Source: a virus. Taken from it: DNA of 28,932 nucleotides. The notes beneath the pieces are model-generated. The model did no database searches. It worked only from the letters and a program-made list of their open reading frames with translations, and was not told the origin of the DNA. Of this stretch, positions 6,037-28,932 are shown one piece after another. Every line of letters starts with the position of its first letter. The stretch's first letter is position 1. The stretch lies in IMG/VR virus record IMGVR_UViG_3300031963_000701, positions 1 to 28,932 of that record, one strand, 5' to 3'. The translations under genes were made by a program, and so were the position numbers.

Positions 6037-6570
6037 TTATACTTTGAAATAGATTTCTTCGTAGTGTAATATATCTAATAGATTTGTTGGGTCAATTATT
6101 TGTGCAGCGTTTAATAGGTCAGAGTATTCTGCTACCGATTTGGTTTGTCCCTGTCTTAATTCTTGTAGAAAATCAAATGTTGCCAAATCATGCTGGAATA
6201 TTTTTTGAGAAGTTTCGTTGTATTTTTCAAATAGTCCAAACTCTAATGCATAGGCTTTGTTTACAATATCAATAAGTCCAGCGAATTGAATGTTTAGCTT
6301 TACTGCTGGCATTGTTGGAGTTATGTTCCAATCTACCATATAGTTTTGTAGTAATTCGGCGTGTGTTAATTCATTTACTGCTTCTTGTGCAAAAAATGCA
6401 GCTGCGTTATTATACCCAACACCTTTACAAAAGTTACTTGCGTTTCTGTAAAAAAAGTGTGCGGTATATTCATCGTGTAACCTTTCGTTTAACAATGCTA
6501 CAGTAGCACTGCCTAATATCTTAGGATTTATTGCTTTTGCCATTGTTAATGCTTTAATGTTCGTTGCCAT
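6037..6570 (-). CDS. Ferritin-like protein (non-haem, FtnA type)
   Basis: A 177-aa four-helix protein that aligns by eye with bacterial ferritin FtnA. Ferroxidase residues appear in order: E34 in helix A (LHDEYTAHFF), E67xxH70 in helix B (FAQEAVNELTH), E110 in helix C (AYALEFGLFEKYNE) and Q136 in helix D (TFDFLQELRQGQ). FtnA has E17, E50/H53, E94 and Q127 at matching spots, and the FtnA stretch PTFNFLQ corresponds to ATFDFLQ here. Length equals that of normal ferritins (about 165-180 aa). Ferritins oxidise Fe(II) and store iron in a 24-mer shell. It lies in the head operon, 3 nt before bS21 and 7 nt after a small unknown gene. Whether it is packaged, forms part of the virion or acts in the infected cell cannot be told from sequence. 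Confidence 0.85.
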   Translation of the reverse strand: MATNIKALTMAKAINPKILGSATVALLNERLHDEYTAHFFYRNASNFCKGVGYNNAAAFFAQEAVNELTHAELLQNYMVDWNITPTMPAVKLNIQFAGLIDIVNKAYALEFGLFEKYNETSQKIFQHDLATFDFLQELRQGQTKSVAEYSDLLNAAQIIDPTNLLDILHYEEIYFKV

Positions 6571-11116: not shown

Positions 11117-11440
11117 TTATTTATCTAGTATAAACCATACATCATAATGGTCAGGCCAAAGTATAGCCCAAAAGAAAATACTACCAAGCAATACCCATAC
11201 TAGTCCAAATTGGAACATTCCGGTTTTTAAGATAGGTACATTTTCATCGGATTTTACCCATTCAGTAACACCCTTTGGTGCACCAGGTTTTTGTACTTGT
11301 ACCATACTTCCCGATCTAGATGCTCTCCATCCGAAATAAAAGAAAATGAAAGCTGGTAGGTAACAGAATGCAAGTGCGATAAACATATCGTAACATTCCG
11401 CCAATGGAGCCAATGTCCATAGTAAATTAACTAATCCCAT
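11117..11440 (-). CDS. Two-helix membrane protein of unknown function, 107 aa
   Basis: A 107-aa protein with two clear hydrophobic segments: residues about 18-40 (MFIALAFCYLPAFIFFYFGW) and about 74-96 (FQFGLVWVLLGSIFFWAILW). A hydrophilic link lies between them (SMVQVQKPGAPKGVTEW). The first ten residues are also hydrophobic. The ATG at 11440 follows an A-rich leader (AAAACAAAAATT). Size and two-helix layout would fit a holin or antiholin, yet there is no recognisable family signature. Confidence 0.75.
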   Translation of the reverse strand: MGLVNLLWTLAPLAECYDMFIALAFCYLPAFIFFYFGWRASRSGSMVQVQKPGAPKGVTEWVKSDENVPILKTGMFQFGLVWVLLGSIFFWAILWPDHYDVWFILDK

Positions 11441-11497: not shown

Positions 11498-11740
11498 TTA
11501 GGCAAAGAAATATAATACTCCACCTAAAGCCGTAACTACCCAATCCCAAACATCGAATTTTTCCTTTTGATAAAATTTGTCATAACACTCTTTTGCTAAT
11601 CCTGCTAATGCGGCAGTTCCGAAACATATCCAACCTAAAACAGGTTGTTCAAATAAGTTAAATCCAGCTGAGAGGATTGAGATAAGTAGTGATATTGCAA
11701 ATCCTACTGTAAAGTGCATTGCTTTGTCTTGTGGTATCAT
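11498..11740 (-). CDS. Small membrane protein, DUF2279-like or holin-like, 80 aa
   Basis: An 80-aa protein with the pattern DKAMHFTVGFAISLL, then ALAGLAKECYDKFY, then FDVWDWVVTALGGVLYF. The order (D-K-x-x-H-F near the start, G-x-x-K-E-x-x-D-K in the middle, D-x-x-x-T-x-x-G at the end) resembles a small family of inner-membrane proteins in Bacteroidota and their phages, related in pattern to DUF2279/YfiM-type proteins. Three membrane segments are likely. The start is 2 nt after the stop of the T9SS metzincin, so the two are probably co-translated. A lysis role is possible but unproven. Confidence 0.75.
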   Translation of the reverse strand: MIPQDKAMHFTVGFAISLLISILSAGFNLFEQPVLGWICFGTAALAGLAKECYDKFYQKEKFDVWDWVVTALGGVLYFFA

Positions 11741-11742
11741 AG

Positions 11743-13182
11743 CTATTGTTTTATTATTTTGAATGATTTAATTCCATCTACATTTACTACATAAACGCCT
11801 GGCGGATATTTACTCAAATCTATTTTATTAACCGAGTGTAAACCGTTTATTGTTTTATATAATACTCCAGTTATAGTGAAAATTCTAACCTCTCTAAAAT
11901 TATTACGATTTGGTAAATTAAGAAAATAAATACCCGTATTCATATCACCATATATAGTGATAAGATTTATTTGTTCTCGTATGTTAGTTATCCATTCTGT
12001 CGGTTGAAAATCAAGAGGTGTCTGACCGTCAAAAACACCGGTTATATTGTAGCTCCCTAACATTCCGTAATTATAGATGTTAGGGTTCTCTGTGTTACTT
12101 ACCACCAAATAATATATGCCAGGGTTTAGGATAGTGTCTATTAGTGCGTCTACTTTTGTAAGAGAGTTATATTCTCTGATGAGCACATCATTACGATACA
12201 GTTGTAATTTAAGGTCTATGTTAGCACCCTGGTTAGGTGTGTTATCTTTAGGTTCAAAAGCATCAAAAAAGATTTTTGGGCCTGGACTATAAGGTTTTGC
12301 ATCCGCTCTAAATTGCCCAGTTTTTGTATAATCAAATCGGTAATAGTCCACATCATTAGTCGTATTGATTATTCCGTTTATTGCATAATTTTGGTCTAAC
12401 ATTAACCTTGATGTTGAGCGATCATTACCAACATCATCAGTTCTGTATTTTACAAAGTTTGCGGTGCTCGCTATTATTGCTAAATCATCTTGAAAACGTG
12501 TGCAAGAAGTAGTTCTATCATTATGCCAAAGACTTAAATTTCTAAAATATGAAACACCCATGATAGGTGACCAACTTGTTTCACTTCTTGGCGTACCTCT
12601 TCCAGCATGATATTCTGTAACAAAAGCACAGCTATCTGTATCTACATTTCTATATTGTGATTGATGAAAAAGACCTAATGTGTGTCCTACCTCATGCGTA
12701 ACTGCTTCAGCAACATCTTTGTCATCACCTTTAAGCAGACTTGAAAAAACAAAACAGGGTATTGTGCCATAACCTAAACCGCCCCACCTCCAAGATTCAA
12801 GATAAGCTACTCCCCCCGCGTTGCCGTACCATTGCCAAGATTGCGTAATTATGACCCTCGTTCTTCTTGTTATCGGGGTTGCTAAAAATACTGCGGAGTC
12901 AGTCGTTACATTGATTGTGAATGGGCGAAAGTCTTCAGCGACAAGATTAAATACTCTTGTCATTTGTGCAGTAGTCATGCTTGTGTCAGGCCCACAAACG
13001 AAAGGTTGATTATTTGTAAAAGCTGTCCAGTATGGATCTGTAACCGTTTGACCGTCAAAATCGAGTAAGATGGTTGCTGTGTTAGGAGCAATGTAACTAT
13101 TTAAGCCGTATGGTATCTGCGCCCTTATTCCTAAAAGAAAACATAAAAGCATTATTAGTAAAAGTAGTAGTTTTCTTTTCAT
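11743..13182 (-). CDS. Secreted metzincin metalloprotease with T9SS C-terminal sorting domain
   Basis: A 479-aa protein. Residues 1-21 are a signal peptide (basic start, LLLLLIMLLCFLLG, cleavage after IRA or at AQ). The catalytic domain (about 35-245) has the full zinc motif H163-E164-x-x-H167-x-x-G170-x-x-H173 and a Met-turn at M208 (SPIMG). Cysteines 64, 143, 186 and 227 may form disulphides. Residues about 255-385 look like a PPC beta-sandwich (DVDYYRFDY, then NPGIYYLVVS). The last 75 residues have the T9SS type A tail, with FTITGVLYKT, KYPPGVYVVNVDG and final KSFKIIKQ. T9SS exists only in Bacteroidota, so a phage copy should be exported by the host machine to the surface or medium. It is paralogous to the protease at 13631-14605. 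Confidence 0.92.
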   Translation of the reverse strand: MKRKLLLLLIMLLCFLLGIRAQIPYGLNSYIAPNTATILLDFDGQTVTDPYWTAFTNNQPFVCGPDTSMTTAQMTRVFNLVAEDFRPFTINVTTDSAVFLATPITRRTRVIITQSWQWYGNAGGVAYLESWRWGGLGYGTIPCFVFSSLLKGDDKDVAEAVTHEVGHTLGLFHQSQYRNVDTDSCAFVTEYHAGRGTPRSETSWSPIMGVSYFRNLSLWHNDRTTSCTRFQDDLAIIASTANFVKYRTDDVGNDRSTSRLMLDQNYAINGIINTTNDVDYYRFDYTKTGQFRADAKPYSPGPKIFFDAFEPKDNTPNQGANIDLKLQLYRNDVLIREYNSLTKVDALIDTILNPGIYYLVVSNTENPNIYNYGMLGSYNITGVFDGQTPLDFQPTEWITNIREQINLITIYGDMNTGIYFLNLPNRNNFREVRIFTITGVLYKTINGLHSVNKIDLSKYPPGVYVVNVDGIKSFKIIKQ

Positions 13183-13184
13183 AA

Positions 13185-13619
13185 TCAGTCAGGTATTAAG
13201 TCAGACATTTCTTTTTTATGCCATTGATTATTTTCTAATATAAGAACATCTTTATGATTTTTACTCATTAACACTGCTCTATAAATATGTTCACCTGTTT
13301 CTAATGTTACATCCGAATATATTAAGATTAGATTATCTATTTCAAGTGAATTAACCGTTATAGAAATCAATTTATTCGTCTTAATTATTCGTGTAACAAT
13401 CCCTTCGAATTTTGTATAGTGTGTTATTCTTAAATTAACAATATCGTGTCTTTCAACATTGGATAGTTGTTCAACAAAAGTCGGTTGCAACTTTGATATA
13501 GCAGAATCTTTTATGAATAGATATGGTTTATCTTTATCCTTTTCTTTTCTTGTCTGAAACTCTTGTGCAAAAGAAAAAGATGATAAAAGAATAAATAAAA
13601 TTGTTACTATTTTTTTCAT
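13185..13619 (-). CDS. Small secreted protein between the two metzincins, 144 aa
   Basis: A 144-aa protein with a clear Bacteroidota-type signal peptide (MKKIVTILFILLSSFSFAQ, cut before Q19). The mature part is a mainly beta protein with strands at IVNLRITHYTKF, KLISITVNSLEI and HIYRAVLMSKN. No zinc motif or catalytic triad seen, and no family recognised. It lies 2 nt before the T9SS metzincin and 11 nt after the lipoprotein metzincin, so the three form one secretory operon. Possible roles are an inhibitor, chaperone or co-factor of the proteases; position is the only evidence. Confidence 0.82.
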   Translation of the reverse strand: MKKIVTILFILLSSFSFAQEFQTRKEKDKDKPYLFIKDSAISKLQPTFVEQLSNVERHDIVNLRITHYTKFEGIVTRIIKTNKLISITVNSLEIDNLILIYSDVTLETGEHIYRAVLMSKNHKDVLILENNQWHKKEMSDLIPD

Positions 13620-13630
13620 ATTTTTGGATT

Positions 13631-14605
13631 TTAATATCCTACTAATTGGCGTATTACTAAGCTATCATTCTGAATGTTTGTACAACTAAAAGAAGTGGTC
13701 CCAATCCACCAATAACCTATTCTTGCATATGAATTACCCATGATAGGCGCTCTTGATGTTGATCCTGTGCCGAAACCAGAATTGTATTCAGTTAAAAATA
13801 CACAAGCATCATTGTAAGATGATTGATGATAAAGGCCTAATGTATGTCCTACTTCGTGTGAACTGGCTTCGAATATATTTTTCTGTTTATATCCAAGTGC
13901 TTTACTAAAAACAAAACATGGCACATCTAATCCCCATTTGATAGATTCCAAATAAGCAACACCTCCTGCACAAGCAGTCGGTCCACAATAAAACTCAAAG
14001 TTTTCAGTTATTATCACTCGCTGTCTTCTTACAAGAGAAGCTGCATTGTAAACACTTGAATCTGTTGTTACTGCTATTGATGCAAATTGACTAAAATCTT
14101 TTCTGACAGAATCTACGATGTTATTGATTTCAACCGTACTAAGGCCTGAAGGAGTTGCGTAAAAGGGCAACCCTCCGTTTTGAGAAGTCCAATACTGACT
14201 TGTAACATATTGGCCATCAAAATCTAAAAATATAACCCAATTCCCAAATGCTGGAGGTGGAGGAAAAGGCGTAGCGTCACATGCATCACCTATTCCATCT
14301 TTATCACTATCTAATTGATCTGGATTAAAAGTTACCGAGCAATTATCTTGTGAATCAATTATTCCGTCTTTATCAGTGTCTCTTGTTTTTCCGCCACTTC
14401 GCCTAAGAGCAACTTGTTGATCTTTAGGCGACATCCTGGCAACGGCATTAAATTGGGTTATTCCAAAATCACAAGTTTCAGGAGACTTTTTCTTAAAGGA
14501 AATTTGTTTGGTTTCTTCTTTTGTTGGTTCTGTTTGTTTTTTACAGAAGGGTAATAATAAAATTACCACAGTTGCCCATAGTAAAGTTTTTGTTGTTTTA
14601 TTCAT
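13631..14605 (-). CDS. Lipoprotein metzincin metalloprotease with thrombospondin type 3 repeats
   Basis: I start it at the ATG at 14605 (MNKTTKTLLWATVVILLLPFC), 324 aa, because this gives an N-terminal export signal; upstream TTG/ATG codons at 14644/14638 would bury it and overlap the DUF1353 gene. Cys21 after LLLPF is a plausible Bacteroidota lipobox, though not perfect. Residues 77-110 hold two thrombospondin type 3 calcium repeats (DTDKDGIIDSQDNC and DSDKDGIGDACD). The protease domain (about 122-324) has H250-E251-x-x-H254-x-x-G257-x-x-H260 and a Met-turn at M289 (APIMG). It matches the second protease through most of the domain (LDFDGQ, RRxRVIIT, GGVAYLES, PCFVFS). It lacks PPC and T9SS parts. 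Probably anchored at the outer membrane of the infected cell. Confidence 0.9.
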   Translation of the reverse strand: MNKTTKTLLWATVVILLLPFCKKQTEPTKEETKQISFKKKSPETCDFGITQFNAVARMSPKDQQVALRRSGGKTRDTDKDGIIDSQDNCSVTFNPDQLDSDKDGIGDACDATPFPPPPAFGNWVIFLDFDGQYVTSQYWTSQNGGLPFYATPSGLSTVEINNIVDSVRKDFSQFASIAVTTDSSVYNAASLVRRQRVIITENFEFYCGPTACAGGVAYLESIKWGLDVPCFVFSKALGYKQKNIFEASSHEVGHTLGLYHQSSYNDACVFLTEYNSGFGTGSTSRAPIMGNSYARIGYWWIGTTSFSCTNIQNDSLVIRQLVGY

Positions 14606-14616
14606 AATATATGGTT

Positions 14617-15036
14617 TTACACAATTTTGTGCCACCATAACCAACCTAAGATTCTAACAAAAAAGTATCTTAGTTTATTATCGAATTTATTGTCATTAAC
14701 GATATTTGCCCAAAAAAGCATTTCATCATCAACTTGCTTTCTTGTCATTGAATGGTCTCTAATGACATAAAGTCTATCATGAACTAAATATGCGAATAAC
14801 CCATCATTAAAGGGTCTAACGATTGACCATAACCATTTAGGTACTGTAGACATATCATATGTAAAACCTTTCGGAATGTTTATGATTTTTCCGCTACTTA
14901 AAATAATGGTTAATGGTTTCTCTATTCTCCAGTATTTAGAGCTCTTGTCTGAATAAATATAAGATTGTACGATTAAATCATCGGTAAGTAGTTGCTCTAC
15001 TATATTATCCTTAGTTATATAGCCTGCCTTTGCCAT
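14617..15036 (-). CDS. DUF1353-type phage protein
   Basis: A 139-aa protein with the family pattern PKGFTYDMSTVPKWLW (about residues 57-72), then FAYLVHDRLYV, then RKQVDDEMLFWANI. The conserved D, S, T, P and HD residues suggest a small metal-binding or enzymatic fold, but no reaction is established for DUF1353. The C-terminus is hydrophobic (FFVRILGWLWWHKIV) and could touch the membrane. The start overlaps the end of the 148-aa gene by 26 nt. DUF1353 proteins are often found near lysis or tail genes, consistent with this position. Confidence 0.82.
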   Translation of the reverse strand: MAKAGYITKDNIVEQLLTDDLIVQSYIYSDKSSKYWRIEKPLTIILSSGKIINIPKGFTYDMSTVPKWLWSIVRPFNDGLFAYLVHDRLYVIRDHSMTRKQVDDEMLFWANIVNDNKFDNKLRYFFVRILGWLWWHKIV

Positions 15037-15457
15037 TTGCTATTTGATTGGTTACAACTTGTAGATTTTCCGTTCTTATCGATGTAACCTGCTCATTTAG
15101 ACTAATCCATTCGGCATTATTGTTTCCAACACCTGTTGCTATTTGCGTTGTAAGTAAATCCATCATTTCAGTATTTATATTATTATAGCTACCTTCGGGC
15201 TTTTGTGCTAAAATACGAAATACATTTACAAAAGTTTCAACACCAACTGAAACCGTTGCTAAATCATCATCATTCAGAGATTGGCATGTCGTTCTTATAT
15301 CATCTATAACAGGCTGCGATACATTAACAACAAGTCCAATAGATTCTGCTCCGGCCAAATAATTTTTTACAGCGGAATATCTAGCTATTTCACTTAATAA
15401 TATATCAGCAATTAAATAAAAATGTTTTGCTTTAAGTTGTATTTCTATCATATACAT
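15011..15457 (-). CDS. Unknown phage protein, 148 aa
   Basis: A 148-aa protein, no signal peptide. Two close start codons (M1 and M3). The first half is helical (KHFYLIADILLSEIARYS); the second half is polar. No motif recognised. It lies 18 nt after the glycosyltransferase and overlaps the DUF1353 gene, so the three appear to be one transcription unit. A T-rich leader (minus-strand TATATTTATA near 15465-15474) sits only about 8 nt from the start. Confidence 0.7.
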   Translation of the reverse strand: MYMIEIQLKAKHFYLIADILLSEIARYSAVKNYLAGAESIGLVVNVSQPVIDDIRTTCQSLNDDDLATVSVGVETFVNVFRILAQKPEGSYNNINTEMMDLLTTQIATGVGNNNAEWISLNEQVTSIRTENLQVVTNQIANGKGRLYN

Positions 15458-15475
15458 TATTTAATATAAATATAA

Positions 15476-16609
15476 TTATTTTTTATAGTTAAGCATATTT
15501 GTATAAACCTCATAATATCTATCTGCTATAATATCCCAATTATATTGTTTACAAGTATCATAACCGTTTTCTTTTAATTGAAATTTCTGATTATTTGTAA
15601 GTTGTGTAAATTCATAAATTCCATTAGTAATCTCTTGCGGTGTAGAACCACAATATAAACTATTTGAATCGGTTAAGAAATCCGATAACCCATCTACTCT
15701 AGATGATAGTAGTATCGTCTTTGATGCCAACGCTTCTAAAGCAACAATACCAAATGGCTCGTGCTTACTTGGCATTATCACAGCATCGGCTGAGTGTATT
15801 ATATCAATTTTATTTTGGTTGTATACAGGTCCGTAATAATGTATTCCAGATTTATTTTGTAAAGCTTTTTCTAGTGCATTTATCGCTTCCACATCTCCTC
15901 CATTATAAGATCCTACAAAAATTAAATCAACGTCAACTGGTAATTCGGAATCCAATAATTCTACTATTGATTTCATAATGGCAAATCTACCAATATAAAT
16001 AATTTTATATTTTCTATTTCCAGGTAATTTAATTTTATTTTGTTGTTTCCAATTATTCAAATCAATACCATTTGGAATAATATCAGTCTTATCTATAAAT
16101 TGTGGAAAATACTTTGCATACCCATTAGATACATTTATGATTTTATCTGCATTTTGTAACCCAAACCACTCCATCTCAACGTGTGCTTTATGTAACCACA
16201 TACCATCTATTGTATTAAAATCGGCGCACATTTTAATACCAACATTAGCCATGGCATTTGCGGATAAATTCATTGAAACCAATAGGGGAACATTATGATA
16301 CTTTGCCAAATACACTCCCGCAAAATATGTAGACCAATCGTAAGAATGAACAAAATCTGGTTTTGGAAATTTAAGTGCTTCTGCTAAATATACAGTATGC
16401 CCTAATAAAGTATTTATTGAACCATGTTGTATTTGTGGAATTGGATGCGATACTCCAATATAATTTTTATCTTTGATTGTAGTATCTGGATAGCCGACTA
16501 TATTAAATTCAACTCTATCCTTCAATCTTTCATAAATGTTTTTGAATTGTACACCAAGTCCACCTGTCGGTTTAGATATACTATCAGGAAATATACATAA
16601 CACTTTCAT
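15476..16609 (-). CDS. GT-B glycosyltransferase, GT4-like
   Basis: A 377-aa retaining-type glycosyltransferase. The N-terminal half opens MKVLCIFPDSISKPTGGLG, with the Gly-Gly of the acceptor loop at 16-17. The C-terminal half has IIPNGIDLNNW (177-187), YIGRFAIMKS (205-214) and the E284-x7-E292 donor-binding motif in EPFGIVALEALA. Both Rossmann halves are complete, so it should be active with a nucleotide-sugar. The sugar and acceptor cannot be read from sequence. Likely targets are the Ser/Thr-rich fibres encoded just upstream, or host surface glycans to block re-infection. A TAnnTTTG box lies 34-41 nt upstream. Confidence 0.88.
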   Translation of the reverse strand: MKVLCIFPDSISKPTGGLGVQFKNIYERLKDRVEFNIVGYPDTTIKDKNYIGVSHPIPQIQHGSINTLLGHTVYLAEALKFPKPDFVHSYDWSTYFAGVYLAKYHNVPLLVSMNLSANAMANVGIKMCADFNTIDGMWLHKAHVEMEWFGLQNADKIINVSNGYAKYFPQFIDKTDIIPNGIDLNNWKQQNKIKLPGNRKYKIIYIGRFAIMKSIVELLDSELPVDVDLIFVGSYNGGDVEAINALEKALQNKSGIHYYGPVYNQNKIDIIHSADAVIMPSKHEPFGIVALEALASKTILLSSRVDGLSDFLTDSNSLYCGSTPQEITNGIYEFTQLTNNQKFQLKENGYDTCKQYNWDIIADRYYEVYTNMLNYKK

Positions 16610-16642
16610 AACTTACAATTTACAATTTTTTTTTAATAAAAA

Positions 16643-16650
16643 CAAATATA
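16643..16650 (-). promoter_or_regulatory. Candidate -7 box upstream of the glycosyltransferase
   Basis: TATATTTG on the minus strand fits TAnnTTTG and lies in the 42-bp gap before the glycosyltransferase, about 34 nt from its ATG. No -33 TTTG was found. Alone this is weak, since the genome is AT-rich. Confidence 0.3.
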
Positions 16651-16651
16651 A

Positions 16652-17074
16652 TTATGTAAGACCACACGCACCATCAGACATAATTATATCAATAACATCG
16701 CTTGAATTTATTGTTATAGCCGTAAAATTCATCGTTCCATCTGATGTTCTTGATATACATTGCTCCAAAATTGAATTTTTGTACAGCGATACACTAATTT
16801 CTTCAAAAAGTGTTGTAGAAACATTTACAGAAATAGAATTAGTTGTTCCAGAGTGATTACCTGTTAAAAAATCGCCACCGGTTAATGGAAGAGAACCTTG
16901 AATGGCTGTAAATGTAATTCCTGATATTGTATTTATAGTACCCCAAATTGAATTATTATCTACAATTAGGTTTACTCTTTCCCATACTAAATCACTTCCT
17001 AAGTAAATTTTATTAACGGTATTTGATCCCAATCTAAAATCTCCTACACTTATTGAGCCTAATGATATTGCCAT
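16652..17074 (-). CDS. Tail-tip or fibre-associated protein, 140 aa
   Basis: A 140-aa beta-rich protein. It starts MAISLGSISVGDFRLGS, followed by NTVNKIYLGSDLVWE; the motif VNKIYLGSxLVW is common near the N-terminus of many phage tail-tip and virion-surface proteins. The remainder (about 35-140) looks like a beta-sandwich. The start is 2 nt after the stop of the 2105-aa fibre, so it probably decorates or caps that fibre. No enzyme motif seen. Confidence 0.72.
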   Translation of the reverse strand: MAISLGSISVGDFRLGSNTVNKIYLGSDLVWERVNLIVDNNSIWGTINTISGITFTAIQGSLPLTGGDFLTGNHSGTTNSISVNVSTTLFEEISVSLYKNSILEQCISRTSDGTMNFTAITINSSDVIDIIMSDGACGLT

Positions 17075-17076
17075 AA

Positions 17077-20000
17077 TTAAATTATTACATATAAAGTATT
17101 ACTATCAGGTGTTATACCACTATATTCTGCCGATGATAAAGATACTATTTTCAATATAGGTGAAGTTCCAGTAAAAGTATCTCCCAGGTTTGTTATGAAA
17201 GAACCCGATTGTGAGCCGGATCTAATAAGTGCAGATCCTGACACCGTCAATGAACTCGAAACCGTCAATGAACCCGAAACCTCTACTCTAGATCCAGATG
17301 CGTATACTAAATTAGACCGGTTTGAATTACTTGTACCATTACCAATGATAAATGCATAATTTGCTGAGCTTGTTATATTATATGCACCCTGTACATGTTG
17401 GTAGCTACCCGCTGCTATTGTAAAAAATCCTTCAGCATGGGATGCCTCTGCGGATGCGGTTGTTGTATGTCCTTCGGCGTGCGCCCATCTTGCAGATGCC
17501 AAAGTTCTATATCCTTCGCTATGAGATCCTGTATTAGAGCTAAATGTTTCTTGTCCTTCGGAGTGGGAAAACTCACCATTTGCTGTAGTAGAAGATCCTT
17601 CGGCGTGTGAACCTTGTCCAAAAGCAATTGTACTACCACCTTCGGCGTGTGAGTATATTCCTCTTGCTATAGAAAAAATGCCCTCTGCATGCGAATAAGA
17701 ACCGGTTGTCTGTGTTTGAAAACCTTCGGCGTGTGAATAAGATCCTGATGCCCATGTTTCTTGACCTTCAGCGTGTGAGTAGCCTCCTATTGCTTGAGTG
17801 TTAAACCCTTCTGTGTGTGAAGCTACTCCTATTGCTTGTGTAATCCAACCTTCTGTGTGTGAATATGCTCCTATTGCTATTGTTGAAATTCCTTCTGCAT
17901 GCGAGCCTTCTCCTATTGCTTGTGTTGTTCGTCCTTCTGCGTGTGAGTCACTTCCCATCGCTTTTGTTCGGTCTCCTTCTGCGTGTGAATATGAACCCGA
18001 TGCTAATGTTTGGTCTCCTTCTGCATGTGAAAAATTGCCTGCAGCCCAAGTGAGATTACCTTCCGAATGCTGACCGGCATTTCTAAATGAGTTTGCGCTA
18101 AATAGAGAATATATAAAACCATACCCACTTAGGCCGGGTGCACCAATAGTTGTAGTAGATCCATTGGTTGTTACACTGGTTACAACCCCACGTTGCCAAT
18201 TAGTAGTTGGACCACGATCTGATCCGGCGGTATAAATAAATCCAGAGCCAACAGGAAAAATACCTACGAAATTGCCAGTTATTGTTACCGAATTTGATGT
18301 ATATCCCGATATAGCGTAAGATTCTGGATTAGCTGCCCACGTTCCAAATCCTTCAGCGTGAGCATAACCAATACTAGCTACTAAGTTGTAATAACCTTCG
18401 GCGTGCGAATATCCATTTTCACTGCCAGAGCTATATATTATGTTTTGCCTACCTTCTGCATGCGAATATGCAGCAATTACTTCATTATTCCAGCCTTCCG
18501 CATGAGAAAAACTGCCAGATGCTATTGAACCACTACCTTCGGTGTGTGAAGCAAGTCCTATTGCAACGGTATACACTCCCTCAGCGTGCGAATATGAACC
18601 CGTTGTTCTTGTACCAGCACCCTCTGCGTGTGAACCTTCTCCTGATGCTTCTGTGAAGCCACCTTCTGAATGCGACCAGTCTCCTGCTGCTAGCGTATCT
18701 ACACCTTCGGAATGAGCTGCTCTTCCAACAGCATTCCATAACGGACCAGCTGCTTCGGTTTGTTCACCTTCGGCATGTGAATACGCACCCGATGCTCTTA
18801 CACCTAAACCTTCACTATGTGAAAAGCCACCCGATGCCCATGTTTCTCTACCTTCAGCGTGCGAACCTTCTCCGGATGCAAGTGTTATTCCACCCTCTGC
18901 ATGCGACCCAAGTCCACTCGCGACAACATAGGCTGATTCAATCCCTACACCCTCTGCATGTGCGTAGTGTCCGCTTGCTAATGTATAAACTCCTTCAGCG
19001 TGTGAATAGTTTCCTGATGCGTTTGTGGATGCACCCTGTGCATGTGAGTACAATCCATTGGCACCTACATCTAGTCCTTGCTGAAAACTCTGACTAGTAT
19101 GTATAAATCTAAATGAACCAGTTCCAGCAAATGTACTATTCCTATTGAATTGTATTTGAGTATCTGAACCACCAACTGTACTTCCACCGCCTCCGGCCGA
19201 TGATGTATAACTTACTAACCCCGTAGTTGTATTATAAGTTAATACGAAACCGGTATTGTTTACAGCTACGCCACTTACAAACAATGAACCGGAAACAGTA
19301 GTAGATCCAGTTACTATTAATGATCCTGTAATTTGTGTATTACTATTTATAGATACGATTGTACCCGTATCACTTATACTCGAACTTGTAATATGTTCGT
19401 TGCCTGTTCCTTTTAATAATCTATTTTGAGGAATATATATTTCACTACCAAGATTACCATATGTTTCGGGCCCCATAAGCAAAACAGATGAAGTTACAGT
19501 AACACCATCCCCTCTATGAACAAATAGCCATTCATCTTGCACAGAATCATATAACAATGATCCAGAACCCGGAGATGAACCTGAATCTATAACTGCCAAT
19601 CCGCCATATCTAATTGTTGGTGAAGATACATTTGTCGTAATCAGATTTGTTCCTATGTTTAATACCGATGAACTTATATATTGTATTGAAGAACTACCTA
19701 ACACTGTAAGATTACCACTTATAATCAATGAACCACTTATTGATTGATTTGCCGTAAATATATTACTTCCGGTTGTAGCAAAAGATGCGGTTTGATTATT
19801 TCTAACAAATGAGCTAGTCTGTGAATTTATTACAAAACTACTTGTCTGCGAATTAGTTACGAAAGAGCTAGTCTGCGAATTTAATACATAAGGCGAAAGC
19901 ATTGAAGCCGTTTGTGCATTAGCTACAAAGCTTGAAGTTTGTGAATTAGTTACGAAAGAGCTTGTTTGTGTATTTCTAACAAAGCTTGAAGTTTGAGAAT

Positions 20001-23000
20001 TGGTTACAAATTGAGTCGTATCTACTGAACCAGCTCCAACAGCAGATGATGCTGTATAAGTTATTCTGCCAGTAGTTGTATCATATGTTAATACATGCCC
20101 CGATCCGGCCGATAATGCTGCTCCACTTACAAACACCGTTCCGCTTATATTTAAGGCGCCATTTATTGTATGAGAATCAGTTGTTGTATTTCCTATTGTT
20201 ACGGCGTTTTGATTAACAATAAATTCTCCACCAAAAACGGAAAGTGATGATGTTATCGTTACAGATCCTGATACTATCATAGATCCGCTTCTTATTGTCA
20301 ATCCATTCTCATCAAATCTTGCTCTTTCAATTCCCTTAAAATAAAATCTTGTTGCAAAATTATTAGCTCCACCTAAATCAGATCTTGGTTGTATAATCAG
20401 ATCACCAGCTAAGGTTGCGGGATTACCATTTGTTCCGGTATTACTTCCAGCTACTACTATTAGAGATTGTGTAAATGATGAAGATATATTAGTATTGGAT
20501 GCTAAAACATCTCCTATTCTTAAACCAAGACCATCGGTACTACCTCCAAAATGTGCACCACCTGCTACCCATAATTTACTATTTTGTATAGAACCTACAG
20601 TACCTGCCCCAATACCAATACCTGATTGCGTTTGGTATAGAATACTTGAACCTAATGTAGTTGTTGTATTCCATATTGGTATAAAGTTTGTAGTTCCTAC
20701 TAATTGCGAATTTGTAGTAAAGCTTGAAGTTTGTGAGTTTAATACAAATGAGCTCGTTTGAGTATTAGTTACGAAACTACTAGTCTGTGAGCTTATTACA
20801 AATGATGAAGTCTGTGTATTTGTTACAAAGCTTGAAGTTTGAGTATTTCTTACAAAACTACTAGTCTGCGAATTAGTTACAAACTGTGTAGTATCTACTG
20901 AACCAGCTCCAACAGCGGATGATGCTGTATAAGTTATCTGACCCGTTGTAGTATTGTAAGTTAATACATGGCCTGTTCCTGATGAAAGCGCTGCTCCGCT
21001 AACAAAAACAGTTCCACTAACAAATTGGTCGCCACGGAAAGTATTAGAACCAGTCGTAGCAAATGATGCAGTTTGAGTACTTCTAACAAAACTACTTGTC
21101 TGTGAATTAAGTACGAATGAGCTGGTTTGTGAATTTGTCACAAAACTGCTAGTCTGCGAATTTAATACAAAACTACTTGTCTGCGAATTAGTTACGAATG
21201 AGCTAGTTTGTGAGTTTGTTACAAATTGAGTCGTATCTACTGAACCCGCTCCAACAGCAGATGATGCTGTATAAGTTATCTGACCTGTCGTTGTATTATA
21301 TGTAAGAACGTGGCCGGTTCCAGATGAAAGCGCTGCTCCACTAACAAATACAGTTCCACTAATAAATTGACTTCCTCTAAAAGTATTAGAACCGGTCGTT
21401 GCAAATGATCCTGTTTCAGAATCCAATACATATGGAGAAAGCATTGAAGCGGTTTGTGCATTTAGCACAAAACTACTTGTTTGTGAGTTTACTACGAAAG
21501 AGCTAGTCTGTGAGTTTGTTACAAAGCTTGAAGTTTGTGTATTTCTTACAAAGCTACTTGTCTGATTATTCAGTACATATGGAGAAAGCATTGAACTTGT
21601 CTGTGAGTTCAATACAAATTGAGTCGTATCTACAGATCCAGCTCCGACAGCTGCTGAAGCTGTATAAGTTATTTGTCCTGTTGTAGTATTGTAAGTTAAT
21701 ACATGTCCCGATCCGGCCGATAATGCTGCCCCACTTACAAAGATTGTACCGCTAATAAACTGGTCACCACGAAATGTATTGGAGCCTGTAGTAGCAAATG
21801 AGCCAGTTTGAGTACTTCTAACAAAGCTACTCGTCTGTGAATTGGTTACAAATGAGCTAGTCTGCGAATTAGTTACAAATGAGCTTGTTTGTGAGTTTAG
21901 TACATACGGAGATAGCATTGAAGCAGTTTGTGCGTTTAGTACAAAGCTACTAGTCTGCGAATTGGTTACAAATTGTGAAACATCCACACTACCAGCTCCA
22001 ACGGCCGAGGATGCGGTATAAGTTATCTGACCTGTTGTTGTGTTATAAGTTAATACATTACCGTTGCCCGAAGATGCTGCTGCTCCACTAATAAATACCG
22101 TACCGCTAATAAACTGGTCACCACGAAATGTATTGGAGCCTGTCGTAGCAAATGAACCGGTTTGTGTACTCCTAATAAAACTGCTAGTCTGTGAATTAGT
22201 TACGAAAGAGCTAGTCTGCGAATTTACTACAAAGCTTGAAGTTTGTGAATTAGTTACGAAAGAGCTAGTCTGCGAATTTCTTACAAAACTACTTGTCTGT
22301 GAGTTTGTTACAAATTGTGAAACATCTACAGATCCAGCTCCGACAGCTGATGAAGCTGTGTATGTGATTTGACCTGTAGATGTATTATACGTCAATACAT
22401 GGCCAGTTCCAGATGATAATGCTGCTCCACTTACAAAGACCGTTCCACTTATATTTAGTGCCCCATTTATTGTATGTATATCGGTTAATGTGTTTCCTAT
22501 TGTTACGGCGTTTTGATTAACAATAAATTCTCCACCAAAAACTGATAGGGAAGAAGTTATATTAACCGTTCCGCTTATTATTTGATTACCTCTAAAAGTA
22601 TTAGAGCCAGTTGTAGCGAATGATGCTGTTTGTGAGTTTAATGTGAAGCTACTAGTCTGACTATTAGTTACAAAGCTTGAAGTTTGTGCATTTACTACAA
22701 ATGAGCTAGTCTGCGTATTAGTTACGAAAGAACTTGTTTGTGAGTTTAATACAAACGAGCTAGTCTGCGTATTAGTTACGAAAGAGCTCGTTTGAGTGTT
22801 TCTAACAAAGCTACTTGTCTGTGAGTTAGTTACGAATTGACTGGTATCAACAGATCCTCCGCCTATAGCAGAAGACGCTGTATATGTTATTTGTCCTGTT
22901 GTACTGTTGTAAGTCAATACATTACCGTTGCCCGATGATAGTGCTGCTCCACTAATAAACACCGTTCCACTAATAAACTGGTCACCACGGAAAGTATTAC

Positions 23001-23394
23001 TACCAGTTGTGGAAAAAGATGAAGTTTGGGTATTTCTAACAAAACTACTTGTTTGTGAGTTTACAACAAAAGAGCTAGTCTGTGAGTTTGTTACAAAGCT
23101 TGAAGTTTGCGAATTAGTTACAAAACTACTAGTCTGATTATTTAATATAAATGACCCTGTCTGCGTATTAGTTACGAAAGAGCTTGTTTGTGTATTTCTA
23201 ACAAAACTACTTGTCTGCGAATTGGTTACAAATTGAGAAACATCTACACTGCCAGCTCCTACTGCCGCAGACGATGTATAACCCACCTTTCCACTAACGG
23301 AATCATATGTAAGTACATTTCCATCGCCAGCTGATTGCTGTGCTCCTATTCTTAAGTCTGCGATACTACCTGAGTCTGTGTAAAATATTGGCAT
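17077..23394 (-). CDS. Giant repetitive tail fibre / adhesin, 2105 aa
   Basis: Order: a short N-terminal domain (1-50, FYTDSGSIADLRIGAQQS); then about residues 50-1208 of blocks built from the 9-residue repeat SQTSSFVTN, each block ending ATTGSNTFRGDQFISG and followed by a beta segment (GHVLTYNTTTGQITYTAS) and GAGSVDTTQF. A spacer at about 895-1045 has FIPIWNTTTTLGSS and ARFDENGLTIR. About 1445-2005 is a beta-roll of some 33 SHAEG-type 14-residue repeats, broken at about 1687-1772 by an inserted domain. A C-terminal part ends SNTLYVII. The protein is almost free of Lys and Cys and rich in Ser, Thr, Asn and Gln. It likely trimerises and binds the host surface. Confidence 0.9.
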   Translation of the reverse strand: MPIFYTDSGSIADLRIGAQQSAGDGNVLTYDSVSGKVGYTSSAAVGAGSVDVSQFVTNSQTSSFVRNTQTSSFVTNTQTGSFILNNQTSSFVTNSQTSSFVTNSQTSSFVVNSQTSSFVRNTQTSSFSTTGSNTFRGDQFISGTVFISGAALSSGNGNVLTYNSTTGQITYTASSAIGGGSVDTSQFVTNSQTSSFVRNTQTSSFVTNTQTSSFVLNSQTSSFVTNTQTSSFVVNAQTSSFVTNSQTSSFTLNSQTASFATTGSNTFRGNQIISGTVNITSSLSVFGGEFIVNQNAVTIGNTLTDIHTINGALNISGTVFVSGAALSSGTGHVLTYNTSTGQITYTASSAVGAGSVDVSQFVTNSQTSSFVRNSQTSSFVTNSQTSSFVVNSQTSSFVTNSQTSSFIRSTQTGSFATTGSNTFRGDQFISGTVFISGAAASSGNGNVLTYNTTTGQITYTASSAVGAGSVDVSQFVTNSQTSSFVLNAQTASMLSPYVLNSQTSSFVTNSQTSSFVTNSQTSSFVRSTQTGSFATTGSNTFRGDQFISGTIFVSGAALSAGSGHVLTYNTTTGQITYTASAAVGAGSVDTTQFVLNSQTSSMLSPYVLNNQTSSFVRNTQTSSFVTNSQTSSFVVNSQTSSFVLNAQTASMLSPYVLDSETGSFATTGSNTFRGSQFISGTVFVSGAALSSGTGHVLTYNTTTGQITYTASSAVGAGSVDTTQFVTNSQTSSFVTNSQTSSFVLNSQTSSFVTNSQTSSFVLNSQTSSFVRSTQTASFATTGSNTFRGDQFVSGTVFVSGAALSSGTGHVLTYNTTTGQITYTASSAVGAGSVDTTQFVTNSQTSSFVRNTQTSSFVTNTQTSSFVISSQTSSFVTNTQTSSFVLNSQTSSFTTNSQLVGTTNFIPIWNTTTTLGSSILYQTQSGIGIGAGTVGSIQNSKLWVAGGAHFGGSTDGLGLRIGDVLASNTNISSSFTQSLIVVAGSNTGTNGNPATLAGDLIIQPRSDLGGANNFATRFYFKGIERARFDENGLTIRSGSMIVSGSVTITSSLSVFGGEFIVNQNAVTIGNTTTDSHTINGALNISGTVFVSGAALSAGSGHVLTYDTTTGRITYTASSAVGAGSVDTTQFVTNSQTSSFVRNTQTSSFVTNSQTSSFVANAQTASMLSPYVLNSQTSSFVTNSQTSSFVINSQTSSFVRNNQTASFATTGSNIFTANQSISGSLIISGNLTVLGSSSIQYISSSVLNIGTNLITTNVSSPTIRYGGLAVIDSGSSPGSGSLLYDSVQDEWLFVHRGDGVTVTSSVLLMGPETYGNLGSEIYIPQNRLLKGTGNEHITSSSISDTGTIVSINSNTQITGSLIVTGSTTVSGSLFVSGVAVNNTGFVLTYNTTTGLVSYTSSAGGGGSTVGGSDTQIQFNRNSTFAGTGSFRFIHTSQSFQQGLDVGANGLYSHAQGASTNASGNYSHAEGVYTLASGHYAHAEGVGIESAYVVASGLGSHAEGGITLASGEGSHAEGRETWASGGFSHSEGLGVRASGAYSHAEGEQTEAAGPLWNAVGRAAHSEGVDTLAAGDWSHSEGGFTEASGEGSHAEGAGTRTTGSYSHAEGVYTVAIGLASHTEGSGSIASGSFSHAEGWNNEVIAAYSHAEGRQNIIYSSGSENGYSHAEGYYNLVASIGYAHAEGFGTWAANPESYAISGYTSNSVTITGNFVGIFPVGSGFIYTAGSDRGPTTNWQRGVVTSVTTNGSTTTIGAPGLSGYGFIYSLFSANSFRNAGQHSEGNLTWAAGNFSHAEGDQTLASGSYSHAEGDRTKAMGSDSHAEGRTTQAIGEGSHAEGISTIAIGAYSHTEGWITQAIGVASHTEGFNTQAIGGYSHAEGQETWASGSYSHAEGFQTQTTGSYSHAEGIFSIARGIYSHAEGGSTIAFGQGSHAEGSSTTANGEFSHSEGQETFSSNTGSHSEGYRTLASARWAHAEGHTTTASAEASHAEGFFTIAAGSYQHVQGAYNITSSANYAFIIGNGTSNSNRSNLVYASGSRVEVSGSLTVSSSLTVSGSALIRSGSQSGSFITNLGDTFTGTSPILKIVSLSSAEYSGITPDSNTLYVII
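17380..19060 (-). repeat. SHAEG 14-residue repeat array (YadA-like beta-roll)
   Basis: About 33 copies with consensus SHAEGxxTxASGxY, 42 bp each. Most keep S/A-H-A/S/T-E-G. The 14-residue spacing equals that of the left-handed parallel beta-roll in the head of YadA-type trimeric adhesins. One insert of about 86 residues (18078-18335) splits it into 16 and 17 copies. Confidence 0.85.
19770..23240 (-). repeat. 9-residue SQTSSFVTN repeat blocks in the 2105-aa fibre
   Basis: Tandem 27-bp units coding SQTSSFxxN, grouped in about seven larger modules of some 100-170 residues separated by beta segments. Protein identity is high, but serine codons vary between neighbouring units (TCA-AGC, AGT-AGT, AGC-TCT). 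A 50-bp stretch at 20189-20238 recurs exactly at 22493-22542, a sign of duplication or gene conversion. Confidence 0.88.
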
Positions 23395-23397
23395 TTG

Positions 23398-23802
23398 TTA
23401 TATTGATATTAAACTACTACTAATAAATATATTGTCGATTTGAGTTTCTGTTAGTCCTACTATACTTCCTATTGCGCCAACAGTTGGTGAAATACGTGAT
23501 ATAGTATTTGCGCTAACCCAAGCCTCTTCGGTTATGATTTTTTGAGAACCGGTCATTTGTGTAATAATATAATCAACCTGGTCTTTCAAAGTTGTAAAGT
23601 TATTATCCGTTGCCGACTCTAATGCTAATTGTGCTTTGAATTGCCAACGCATTACTCTAATAGGGCAGTTAGTAATCAAATCTACATATGAGGATGGTAT
23701 TTCATCCGCATCCCCATTGAATGCTGCTTTTGTTTCTTCATTACCTTGCATATCGTAGTATGTTACCGCATTACCATTGATACTATATTTTCCTTTTTGC
23801 AT
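23398..23802 (-). CDS. Fibre-associated protein of unknown function, 134 aa
   Basis: A 134-aa protein that starts MQKGKYSINGNAVTYYD. The middle holds a helix (RVMRWQFKAQLALESATDNN) of a type seen in small phage tail proteins, where RxWQxxxAL precedes a loop and a second helix (FTTLKDQVDYIITQM). The C-terminus is hydrophobic and ends FISSSLISI. It lies 12 nt after the 981-aa fibre and 3 nt before the 2105-aa fibre. It may be a fibre chaperone or a joint between the two fibres; no specific match recognised. Confidence 0.7.
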   Translation of the reverse strand: MQKGKYSINGNAVTYYDMQGNEETKAAFNGDADEIPSSYVDLITNCPIRVMRWQFKAQLALESATDNNFTTLKDQVDYIITQMTGSQKIITEEAWVSANTISRISPTVGAIGSIVGLTETQIDNIFISSSLISI

Positions 23803-23814
23803 ATATTTTTATTT

Positions 23815-26760
23815 TTAATTTATCAATACTTGTGCTACTTGTCTTACTGCTTCCGGATTTGTACCCCAGTTTGGCGTTGTCCATCTCATTTCCAATGAAT
23901 CACCTTTTGTAATTTGTAAAGGTGTTGCCAATGTGAAAGTCAATAGTTGTGCAGCGGTATTATGCTCCAATGTGGTTGTTATCGTTGTAGTTTGTCCCGT
24001 AGTTACATTTGCTAATACCAATGTACTATCTTCGGATGTACCTACTACACCCGCTACTGATACCATAAGTGTAACATATGTTGCCCAACCGGATGCCATT
24101 GCTATAACTCTACGTGTGGCAGCTGCAGTAGAGCTTGGGTTTTGGGCCATAAAATTACCAATATAATAAGTTGTTGAATCTAATGGAGTTCCCGTTGTCC
24201 AATCATGAGCAAATTGACAAACATATTGATTTTTATTCAACAATGTCCAATCGGAAACCCCATCGGATTGTAGTAGTAAAGATTCGGCTGCACCCAATCT
24301 TCTTGTCAATCTACCATCTATTGTTTCAGTAGTATGAGCATCTACAGTTACTATACCCGTTCCTCCATTTTTTATGTAAAGTTGTCTACCACGATTACCA
24401 ACTACAGTATACAAGCTAGCCGTAACATTTCCAGTTAAATCTATTGTAGAATCTGCTATTGAAGCCGTATAAGTAGCTGATGCTGTTACAAATCTCAAAG
24501 CCAATGAGCCGGAAACGGATAATGAGCCCGTTACTTCGGTATTACTATTTATTGAAACAATCGTACCCGTGTCGGTTATGTTACTATCATTTAGATGTTC
24601 ATTCCCTTTACTCTTTGGAATACGATTGGCCGTTAAATATATTTCACTACCTAAATTATCTATCGTTTCAGGTCCTTGTAAAAATAAAGATGATGTTATA
24701 TTTGTGCCATTTCCTTTATGAACAAATACGAACTCATCTTGTACGGAGTCGTATAATATAGAACCCGAAACAAGCGGTGAACTACCCGAATCAATAATTG
24801 CTAATCCACCAAAACGATTAGTAGGATTAAATGTATTTACGGTTATGAGATTAGTTCCTATATTAAGTGTTGAAGAAGTTACATATTGAACCGATGCACT
24901 ACCTAAAACCGTTAAATCATTTGTAATAGTGAGAGAACCCGATATTATTTGATTATTTGTAAATGTATTTGAACCTGTAGTTGCAAATCTTGTACTATCT
25001 ATTCCATCAAGTAAGTCCGAATTACTTGCATAAGATGCTGTTCCCTGTAAGGTGCCGGTAGCAACTAATGATGTTGCTATTACATTGGAACCATTGTAAG
25101 TTAGTGCAGGAACTCCACCAAATACTCCTGCGTTGTTATATTGTATTTCTCCAGAGTTTCCGCCAGGTGTAGTAGAACCACCCCCACCTCCGCCACCACT
25201 TGTACCACTACCAGATTGTATTGCTATCCAATAAACTGGACCTGTAAGTGCAATACTACTATTTGAATTTATTGTAAATCCACTTGTCGTTTTACTTTGT
25301 ACAGTCCACGTTCTACTATCATCTCCCTCAATACTAATTGCGTAATTGTTATCCGTAAATGGTGTTGTGAATGTTACACTTGCAGTTAATGGCGTTCCGT
25401 TGAATGATGTATTTGATATTTGACTTGCGTATGTTACCAATCCTGTCGAACTACCACCCAATCCAGCCGATGAAGTATATCCAATTTGACCTGTAGTGGT
25501 ATTATAGGTTAAAACAAATCCGGTATTGCTTACAGCAGCTCCGCTTAAGAATAGTGAACCACTTATAGTTTGATTTCCACGGAATGTGTTTGAGCCTGTA
25601 GTTGCGAATGATGCAGTCTGATTATTTAATACAAATGAGCTAGTCTGTGAGTTTGTTACAAATGATGAAGTCTGGCTATTAGTTACAAAGCTTGAAGTCT
25701 GTGAATTAGTTACAAATGAGCTTGTCTGTGAATTTGTAACAAAACTACTTGTTTGTGTATTAGTTACGAAAGAACTCGTCTGGCTATTTAGTACAAAGCT
25801 TGAAGTTTGTGTATTAGTTACGAAACTACTAGTCTGCGAATTTGTTACAAATGAACCGGTCTGACTATTAGGTACGAATTGTGAAACATCTACGCTACCA
25901 GCTCCAACAGCCGAAGATGCTGTATAAGTTATTTTACCCGTTGTAGTATCGTAAGTCAATACATTACCGTTGCCTGAAGATGCCGCTGCTCCACTAATAA
26001 ACACAGTTCCACTAATAAACTGGTCACCACGAAATGTATTGGAGCCTGTCGTAGCAAATGAACCGGTTTGTGCATTTAGCACAAAGCTTGAAGTTTGTGA
26101 GTTTGTTACAAATGATGAAGTCTGATTATTAGTTACAAAACTACTTGTCTGATTATTAGTTACAAAGCTACTTGTCTGATTATTAGTTACAAAGCTACTT
26201 GTTTGTGAGTTTGGTACATAGCCCGGCACAAATGAAGCAGTGCTTGCGAAACTACTGCTTAAAACAGTCATTGAGCTTGTTTGCGAATTTAATACAAAGC
26301 TTGAAGTTTGAGAATTTGTAACAAAACTACTTGTTTGTGAGTTAGTTACGAAACTACTAGTCTGCGAATTTAATACAAAGCTTGAAGTTTGTGAGTTAGT
26401 AACAAATGATGCAGTCTGATTGTTAGTTACAAAAGAGCTTGTTTGCGAATTTGTTACGAAGCTTGAAGTTTGTGTATTTCTAACGAATGAGCTAGTTTGT
26501 GAATTTGGTACAAATTGTGAAACGTCTACGCTACCAGCTCCTACTGCTGAAGATGCTGTAAAGAATACTTGACCTGTTGTTGTATCATATGTTAGTACAT
26601 TGCCATTACCAGCCGATTGCGTAGTTCCACTTATGAATAATGAGCCAGATACATTAAGATTATTTCTAAATCTACCCGAACCCGATACATCTAATGAGCC
26701 GGATATTGTACTATTATCAAGAGATATAAACCCATTACGGGTTACAAATTCATTTGCCAT
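23815..26760 (-). CDS. Repetitive tail fibre / adhesin, 981 aa
   Basis: N-terminal domain (1-75) with SLDNSTISGSLDVSGSG and FRNNLNVSGSLFISG; then 9-residue SQTSSFVTN repeats (about 77-383) in two blocks; then a beta spacer and a glycine run of seven at about residue 525, followed by GEIQYNNAGVFGG, a module shared with the 696-aa fibre. Residues about 600-760 (GSNTFTNNQIISG, then DSGSSPLVSGSILYDSVQDE) are also found in the 2105-aa fibre. The last 140 residues are unique (from YVCQFAHDWTTGTP to VAQVLIN), look like a beta-sandwich and are the best candidate for receptor binding in this protein. Confidence 0.9.
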   Translation of the reverse strand: MANEFVTRNGFISLDNSTISGSLDVSGSGRFRNNLNVSGSLFISGTTQSAGNGNVLTYDTTTGQVFFTASSAVGAGSVDVSQFVPNSQTSSFVRNTQTSSFVTNSQTSSFVTNNQTASFVTNSQTSSFVLNSQTSSFVTNSQTSSFVTNSQTSSFVLNSQTSSMTVLSSSFASTASFVPGYVPNSQTSSFVTNNQTSSFVTNNQTSSFVTNNQTSSFVTNSQTSSFVLNAQTGSFATTGSNTFRGDQFISGTVFISGAAASSGNGNVLTYDTTTGKITYTASSAVGAGSVDVSQFVPNSQTGSFVTNSQTSSFVTNTQTSSFVLNSQTSSFVTNTQTSSFVTNSQTSSFVTNSQTSSFVTNSQTSSFVTNSQTSSFVLNNQTASFATTGSNTFRGNQTISGSLFLSGAAVSNTGFVLTYNTTTGQIGYTSSAGLGGSSTGLVTYASQISNTSFNGTPLTASVTFTTPFTDNNYAISIEGDDSRTWTVQSKTTSGFTINSNSSIALTGPVYWIAIQSGSGTSGGGGGGGSTTPGGNSGEIQYNNAGVFGGVPALTYNGSNVIATSLVATGTLQGTASYASNSDLLDGIDSTRFATTGSNTFTNNQIISGSLTITNDLTVLGSASVQYVTSSTLNIGTNLITVNTFNPTNRFGGLAIIDSGSSPLVSGSILYDSVQDEFVFVHKGNGTNITSSLFLQGPETIDNLGSEIYLTANRIPKSKGNEHLNDSNITDTGTIVSINSNTEVTGSLSVSGSLALRFVTASATYTASIADSTIDLTGNVTASLYTVVGNRGRQLYIKNGGTGIVTVDAHTTETIDGRLTRRLGAAESLLLQSDGVSDWTLLNKNQYVCQFAHDWTTGTPLDSTTYYIGNFMAQNPSSTAAATRRVIAMASGWATYVTLMVSVAGVVGTSEDSTLVLANVTTGQTTTITTTLEHNTAAQLLTFTLATPLQITKGDSLEMRWTTPNWGTNPEAVRQVAQVLIN
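25610..26530 (-). repeat. 9-residue repeat blocks in the 981-aa fibre
   Basis: Two blocks of 27-bp units coding SQTSSFVTN-like repeats, divided by a beta module (GSNTFRGDQFISG to GAGSVDVSQF). Within the first block a short non-repeat stretch (MTVLSSSFASTASFVPGY) breaks the period. Confidence 0.88.
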
Positions 26761-26836
26761 TTACATTGTGCTCTAGTTCACTATCCCTAAAGCCGGGGTT
26801 TTGTATAAATATCTAAAATTATATAAAATAAAATCG

Positions 26837-28927: not shown

Positions 28928-28932
28928 AATTC

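Follow-up and report, generated by a model that had tools for sequence, protein, structure and literature searches.

Known phage T9SS cargo and chaperoned metzincins

Phage-encoded cargo of the type IX secretion system (T9SS) has already been published for Cryophage (Nat Commun 2020; PMC7468147), whose proteins, like the one described here, carry T9SS type A sorting domains. The cargo given in the accessible text of that paper is an endoglucanase, GH39 and a PA14 protein, and that text describes neither a protease nor a partner gene. T9SS-domain proteins close to phage head genes were also described in work on crAss-like BACON proteins (PMC6949934). When we searched cultured phages with a single T9SS tail as query, an insensitive approach, the one match was Flavobacterium phage immuto. 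Its protein QQO91933.1 has a signal-peptide-like start and a T9SS type A tail (47.1 bits; PF18962 36.7 bits) but carries a cohesin domain instead of a protease, and is encoded early in the record, away from the head and tail region. This cohesin gene (L183:1528-4423; MW353176 10527-13422) lies near that of a C-type lectin protein.

Acinetobacter offers a known case of a secreted metzincin whose chaperone is encoded next to it, the CpaA–CpaB pair; in structure 6O38 the metzincin CpaA is bound to its chaperone CpaB (PMC7542363). That pair differs from ours in using type II rather than type IX secretion, in the membrane anchor of CpaB and in the Ig-like repeats of CpaA. An operon of Chitinophagaceae (for example in L079 and L080) shares with our locus the gene pair, its order, the domain plan and a T9SS tail scoring over the cut-off; it differs in lying on chromosomal or other bacterial contigs, in the roughly 36–40% identity of its metzincin to ours and in that we saw no adjacent lipoprotein metzincin. 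Cyanophage S-CRM01 also encodes a metzincin with a PPC domain (AEC52989.1, about 29% identity), but this protein has no evident signal peptide and no C-terminal T9SS tail, and it groups with cyanobacterial genes. We considered and rejected a T9SS tail in this homologue, as the 20.6-bit match was under the cut-off and fell within the PPC stretch, not at the C terminus.

A metzincin with a T9SS tail among phage genes

We analysed an IMG/VR fragment of 28,932 nucleotides, referred to in its entirety as the window. The first-pass annotation had placed the protease gene in a run of phage structural genes, and we found a gp23-like capsid gene (phrog_138, E 1.7e-70), a gp21-like prohead protease (PF03420, 109.6 bits) and an Ad2 head–tail connector. 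Capsid identity was 55% to Microcystis phage Mel-JY01, 51% to immuto and 40% to Rhodothermus phage RM378. Because the nearest cultured capsid relatives include Flavobacterium and Rhodothermus phages, the host is probably, though not certainly, a Bacteroidota bacterium. Mel-JY01 (L018; PP395634) has the closest capsid in our collection and groups with phages of Bacteroidota; the host recorded for it may be worth re-examining. The window also encodes three very long fibre-like proteins of 2105, 981 and 696 aa (17077-28930, minus strand), with many repeats of the FVTNSQTSSF and SHAEG types, and a ferritin-like protein (6037-6570, minus strand; PF00210, 67 bits), the gene of which lies between the prohead-protease region and a scaffold-like gene.

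The protease gene lies where it had first been annotated, and its features are as follows.

11743..13182, minus strand: T9SS-tailed metzincin, 479 aa, ATG start
13120..13182, minus strand: signal-peptide-like N terminus judged by eye, residues 1-21, ending in GIRAQ
12664..12696, minus strand: zinc site HEVGHTLGLFH, residues 163-173; H163, E164, G166, H167, G170 and H173 invariant
12556..12567, minus strand: Met-turn PIMG with M208; P206, M208 and G209 invariant
12028..12408, minus strand: PPC or collagen-binding-like domain, about residues 259-385; predicted fold matches 1nqd and 5sv5, NF038127 score of 19.6 bits below cut-off
11746..11931, minus strand: T9SS type A sorting domain, residues 418-479; TIGR04183 25.6 bits against 23, PF18962 23 against 27

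The zinc ligands and the Met-turn (SPIMG) residues did not vary across 17 aligned relatives, and the 479-aa protein has both the HExxHxxGxxH motif and the Met-turn that characterize the metzincin clan, as first annotated. Comparison with metzincin profiles, which the first-pass annotation had proposed as a check, gave no family assignment: Peptidase_M57 scored 19.4 against 21, the reprolysins were likewise under their curated cut-offs, and the serralysin family NF035945 reached 16.4 of the 500 bits required. Since every named-family score fell below its curated cut-off, we describe the protein as a metzincin without a named family. The N terminus (MKRKLLLLLIMLLCFLLGIRAQ) is typical of a signal peptide by eye, and the aligned relatives also start with hydrophobic residues. 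The PPC-like domain annotated earlier stood up in fold and not in sequence: the region resembles collagenase PPC and collagen-binding domains in its predicted structure, whereas NF038127 stayed under its cut-off of 29 bits. The AlphaFold model of the whole protein was poor (mean pLDDT 60), and the match of the PPC region is the sole part of it that we used.

The sorting tail had been proposed for the last 75 or so residues, where TIGR04183 exceeded its cut-off and reached the final position of the model but the stricter Pfam profile PF18962 was missed. This borderline score is resolved at the level of the family, by the scores of relatives and by matches to solved tails. TIGR04183 gave 27.9, 24.6, 36.3 and 29.0 bits in the phage relatives L004, L022, L024 and L174, and 29.6-35.0 bits in bacterial homologues (L079 35.0, L080 34.1). 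The family profile retrieved the solved T9SS tails of Mirolase (8qb1) and gingipains (5hfs and 7pq4), together with 8glj. In controls the TIGR04183 cut-off was passed in just 1 of 14 genomes. The sequence therefore supports a phage-borne protease bearing a T9SS type A tail, and the window, in the manner of Cryophage, has such a domain on a phage contig amid phage genes. With good confidence, we take the metzincin to be addressed to T9SS, so that a protease encoded by the virus would probably end up on the surface of the infected cell or in the medium around it.

A chimeric assembly of phage and host DNA had been named as an outcome that would undo this reading, and the bacterial origin of the gene family lends the idea some colour. 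The gene, however, recurs among phage genes in independent contigs of six further metagenomic data sets (identities of 100%, 79%, 48% and 47%), which excludes a chimera for practical purposes, and the phage copies form a clade of their own.

A gene run with a second metzincin

The first-pass annotation overlooked two neighbours, at 13631-14605 a second metzincin and at 13185-13619 a partner gene. The surrounding genes, listed from high to low coordinates, are these.

14617..15036, minus strand: DUF1353 protein, a recurrent neighbour (PF07087, 46.9 against 22.5)
13631..14605, minus strand: second metzincin with a lipoprotein-like start (LLPFC), TSP3 repeats (PF02412, 27.2 against 25) and the site HEVGHTLGLYH, lacking a T9SS tail; paralogue of the first (E 4.7e-49)
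13185..13619, minus strand: f7, putatively exported 144-aa beta protein with a CpaB-like predicted fold, presumed chaperone or inhibitor of the metzincin
11498..11740, minus strand: f1, 80-aa protein with several membrane segments, of holin-like size, adjoining phage metzincins in 13 loci
11117-11440, minus strand: f8, small membrane protein recurring near phage metzincins
10705-11115, minus strand: f4, small membrane protein recurring near phage metzincins

Transcription would run from the DUF1353 gene through the lipoprotein metzincin, f7 and the T9SS metzincin to f1; the last four genes are co-directional and separated by gaps of 2-11 bases. The reading frame of the second metzincin is also open up to a TTG at 14644. 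The arrangement is repeated in locus L004, where the T9SS metzincin is 79% identical to that of the window and an endolysin gene separates the DUF1353 gene from that of the lipoprotein metzincin. A scan for the family gave 45 viral loci, comprising T9SS-tailed forms, many lipoprotein-TSP3 forms, which occur in many large phages, and a few PPC forms lacking a signal, such as that of cyanophage S-CRM01. Two relatives (L026:8756-9640 and L038) have a papain-family protease gene directly upstream of the lipoprotein metzincin (PF00112, 24.7 against 20.7 bits). In L004 the protease cassette is followed by a long run that reads, by eye, as sugar transferases and methyltransferases (12023-21436).

The position of these genes between fibre-like and head genes might suggest that the proteases travel on the particle and act at entry, as might the S-CRM01 homologue, which lies between gp21 and gp22 and lacks an evident signal peptide. 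A signal-peptide-like start, a T9SS tail and a lipoprotein start would, however, be useless on a virion assembled in the cytoplasm, and we regard a virion role as highly improbable.

The partner gene f7 resembles CpaB in predicted fold

Wherever the sequence of a phage locus extends beyond the start of the T9SS metzincin gene (window/L003, L004, L022/L023 and L024), f7 is the next gene upstream, and a scan of viral contigs with a four-row f7 alignment found none beyond those loci. All 16 loci of the Chitinophagaceae type (L065-L080) likewise gave a match to its profile immediately upstream of the metzincin, and the other bacterial loci, L081-L137, gave none. The C-terminal residues are strongly conserved among the phage f7 proteins.

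The AlphaFold model of f7 was good (pLDDT 87). In Foldseek the top six matches were all chains of 6o38, the small ones (E 1.5e-3), and VIA-align gave a Z of 9.4 over 97 residues, with the next entry at 5.5. Judging from their size and residue numbers, we infer that the small chains are CpaB. A profile search of PDB sequences with f7 did not have 6o38 among its matches; because sequence similarity to CpaB is thus undetectable, we call f7 CpaB-like and do not assign it as CpaB. The fold search was blind to the neighbouring gene, so that these two lines of evidence, fold and gene order, do not depend on each other, and f7 combines the adjacency to an exported metzincin and the fold of a CpaB-type chaperone. 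On these grounds, f7 is quite probably a chaperone of the metzincin. A resemblance to the fragilysin prodomain was dropped, as its Z of 4.4 at best equalled that of fatty-acid-binding proteins. An AprI-type inhibitor was also considered, and none was among the matches listed, which excludes nothing.

A bacterial origin of the operon

A careful tree, with other Bacteroidota as its root, united the four T9SS metzincins of phages in a single clade (100/96), which joined the lipoprotein forms (98/89) within the T9SS forms of Chitinophagaceae (99/98). Because the phage clade is nested in Chitinophagaceae forms and f7 is shared, the tree and gene content indicate that a phage captured the f7–metzincin operon from a Chitinophagaceae-like bacterium. 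Some Chitinophagaceae chromosomes (L142-L145) carry the gene of a TSP3-lipoprotein metzincin next to an apparent prfA, and we dropped an earlier idea that the lipoprotein form is confined to phages. These four chromosomal forms were placed inside the phage lipoprotein radiation (100/97), which could reflect return transfer from phage to host or repeated capture. A wider, quicker tree, built without the prfA-adjacent forms and superseded by the careful tree on that point, grouped the cyanophage copies with cyanobacteria at two separate places. Since they occupy two such positions, the trees suggest several separate acquisitions of this metzincin family by phages, with the phyla of their own hosts as the source.

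A metzincin of this family is present in 92 of 296 Chitinophagaceae genomes. That the operon is so ordinary there, and that the protein has a collagen-binding-like PPC domain, would suit an auxiliary gene, a host exoenzyme kept to feed the infected cell or to open a biofilm or particle, in line with uses suggested in the first-pass annotation. Feeding, however, would pay only briefly in a lytic cycle, and several relatives link the genes to endolysin and spanin-like genes, so that we consider this purpose doubtful.

Lysis genes near the proteases in relatives

An M15 endolysin gene (PF13539) lies just upstream of the cassette in L004, L022 and L025, within about 1.5 kb. Within the same distance downstream, L028 and L035 have an amidase endolysin (PF01510), and also downstream a u-spanin-like lipoprotein with a C-terminal membrane segment. 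In L027 and in the L030 group the nearest amidase is more distant (about 8 kb and 18 kb, respectively), and lysis genes are absent from the vicinity of many lipoprotein loci; short contigs skew the sample to near neighbours. The window and its 72.9-kb twin gave no match to M15 or Amidase_2 endolysins, the types searched. A further pointer to release comes from L175 (7773-11092), where a subtilase gene (PF00082, 152 bits), its product likewise with a lipoprotein-like start, comes after the lipoprotein metzincin and is itself succeeded by genes for small membrane proteins and for a TIGR02594 protein. In L025 a gene reading by eye as a GIY-YIG homing endonuclease (1405-2061) separates the M15 endolysin from the metzincin.

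The neighbourhood in some relatives, with M15 or amidase endolysins and spanin-like and holin-like genes, favours release of the phage over the stripping of receptors, without deciding between them. In the latter case the exported proteases would cleave receptors or further proteins of the surface, which would keep released progeny from sticking to debris and bar other phages from superinfection. Both the T9SS route and the lipoprotein anchor end at the surface, many lipoprotein loci stand without neighbouring lysis genes, and superinfection exclusion has been suggested for Cryophage T9SS cargo (PMC7468147). Several relatives nevertheless place the proteases in late structural or lysis regions; we therefore hold surface cleavage of this kind to be fairly unlikely. 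Weighing the lysis-gene neighbours of relatives against the loci that have none, we favour a role of the proteases in release over surface cleavage, nutrition and a place on the virion, with a chance that we put at slightly under even.

The computed gene content, tail, catalytic site, capture, fold match and lysis neighbours suggest to us how such a role might be played. The host Sec system would export f7 and both metzincins, and in the periplasm the CpaB-like f7 would hold the T9SS metzincin in solution and prevent its activity. T9SS would then carry this metzincin to the cell surface or the medium, with removal of the tail, while the lipid-anchored second metzincin would work at the envelope. 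Late in infection the two may digest proteins of the envelope or surface matrix, so that the lysing cell falls apart and the progeny are freed. The account as a whole, of a T4-like Bacteroidota phage with a captured f7–metzincin operon that uses the host T9SS for export and as a late aid to release, is in our judgement evenly poised between right and wrong.

Discussion

Within the literature that we could search, three things are new: a protease as phage T9SS cargo, a captured CpaB-like partner gene, and the pairing with a lipoprotein metzincin family of many large phages. Our search found no phage proteases of this kind and no chaperones dedicated to T9SS cargo, which is weak evidence as subscription papers are thinly covered. 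To our knowledge, there is no example of a dedicated periplasmic chaperone or inhibitor of T9SS cargo. We tentatively propose that f7 may be one, acting as both, and that phages captured the pair as a safe and timed extracellular tool for leaving a Bacteroidota cell.

If this is true, a lytic phage places its own protease outside the cell through the outer-membrane export machine of its host, regulatory partner included. Immuto, a cultured relative with T9SS cargo that grows on Flavobacterium, makes the use of T9SS by phages testable now. The findings also suggest that T9SS may have cargo-specific chaperones, and that proteases acting outward from the cell may add a further layer to release in phages of Bacteroidota.
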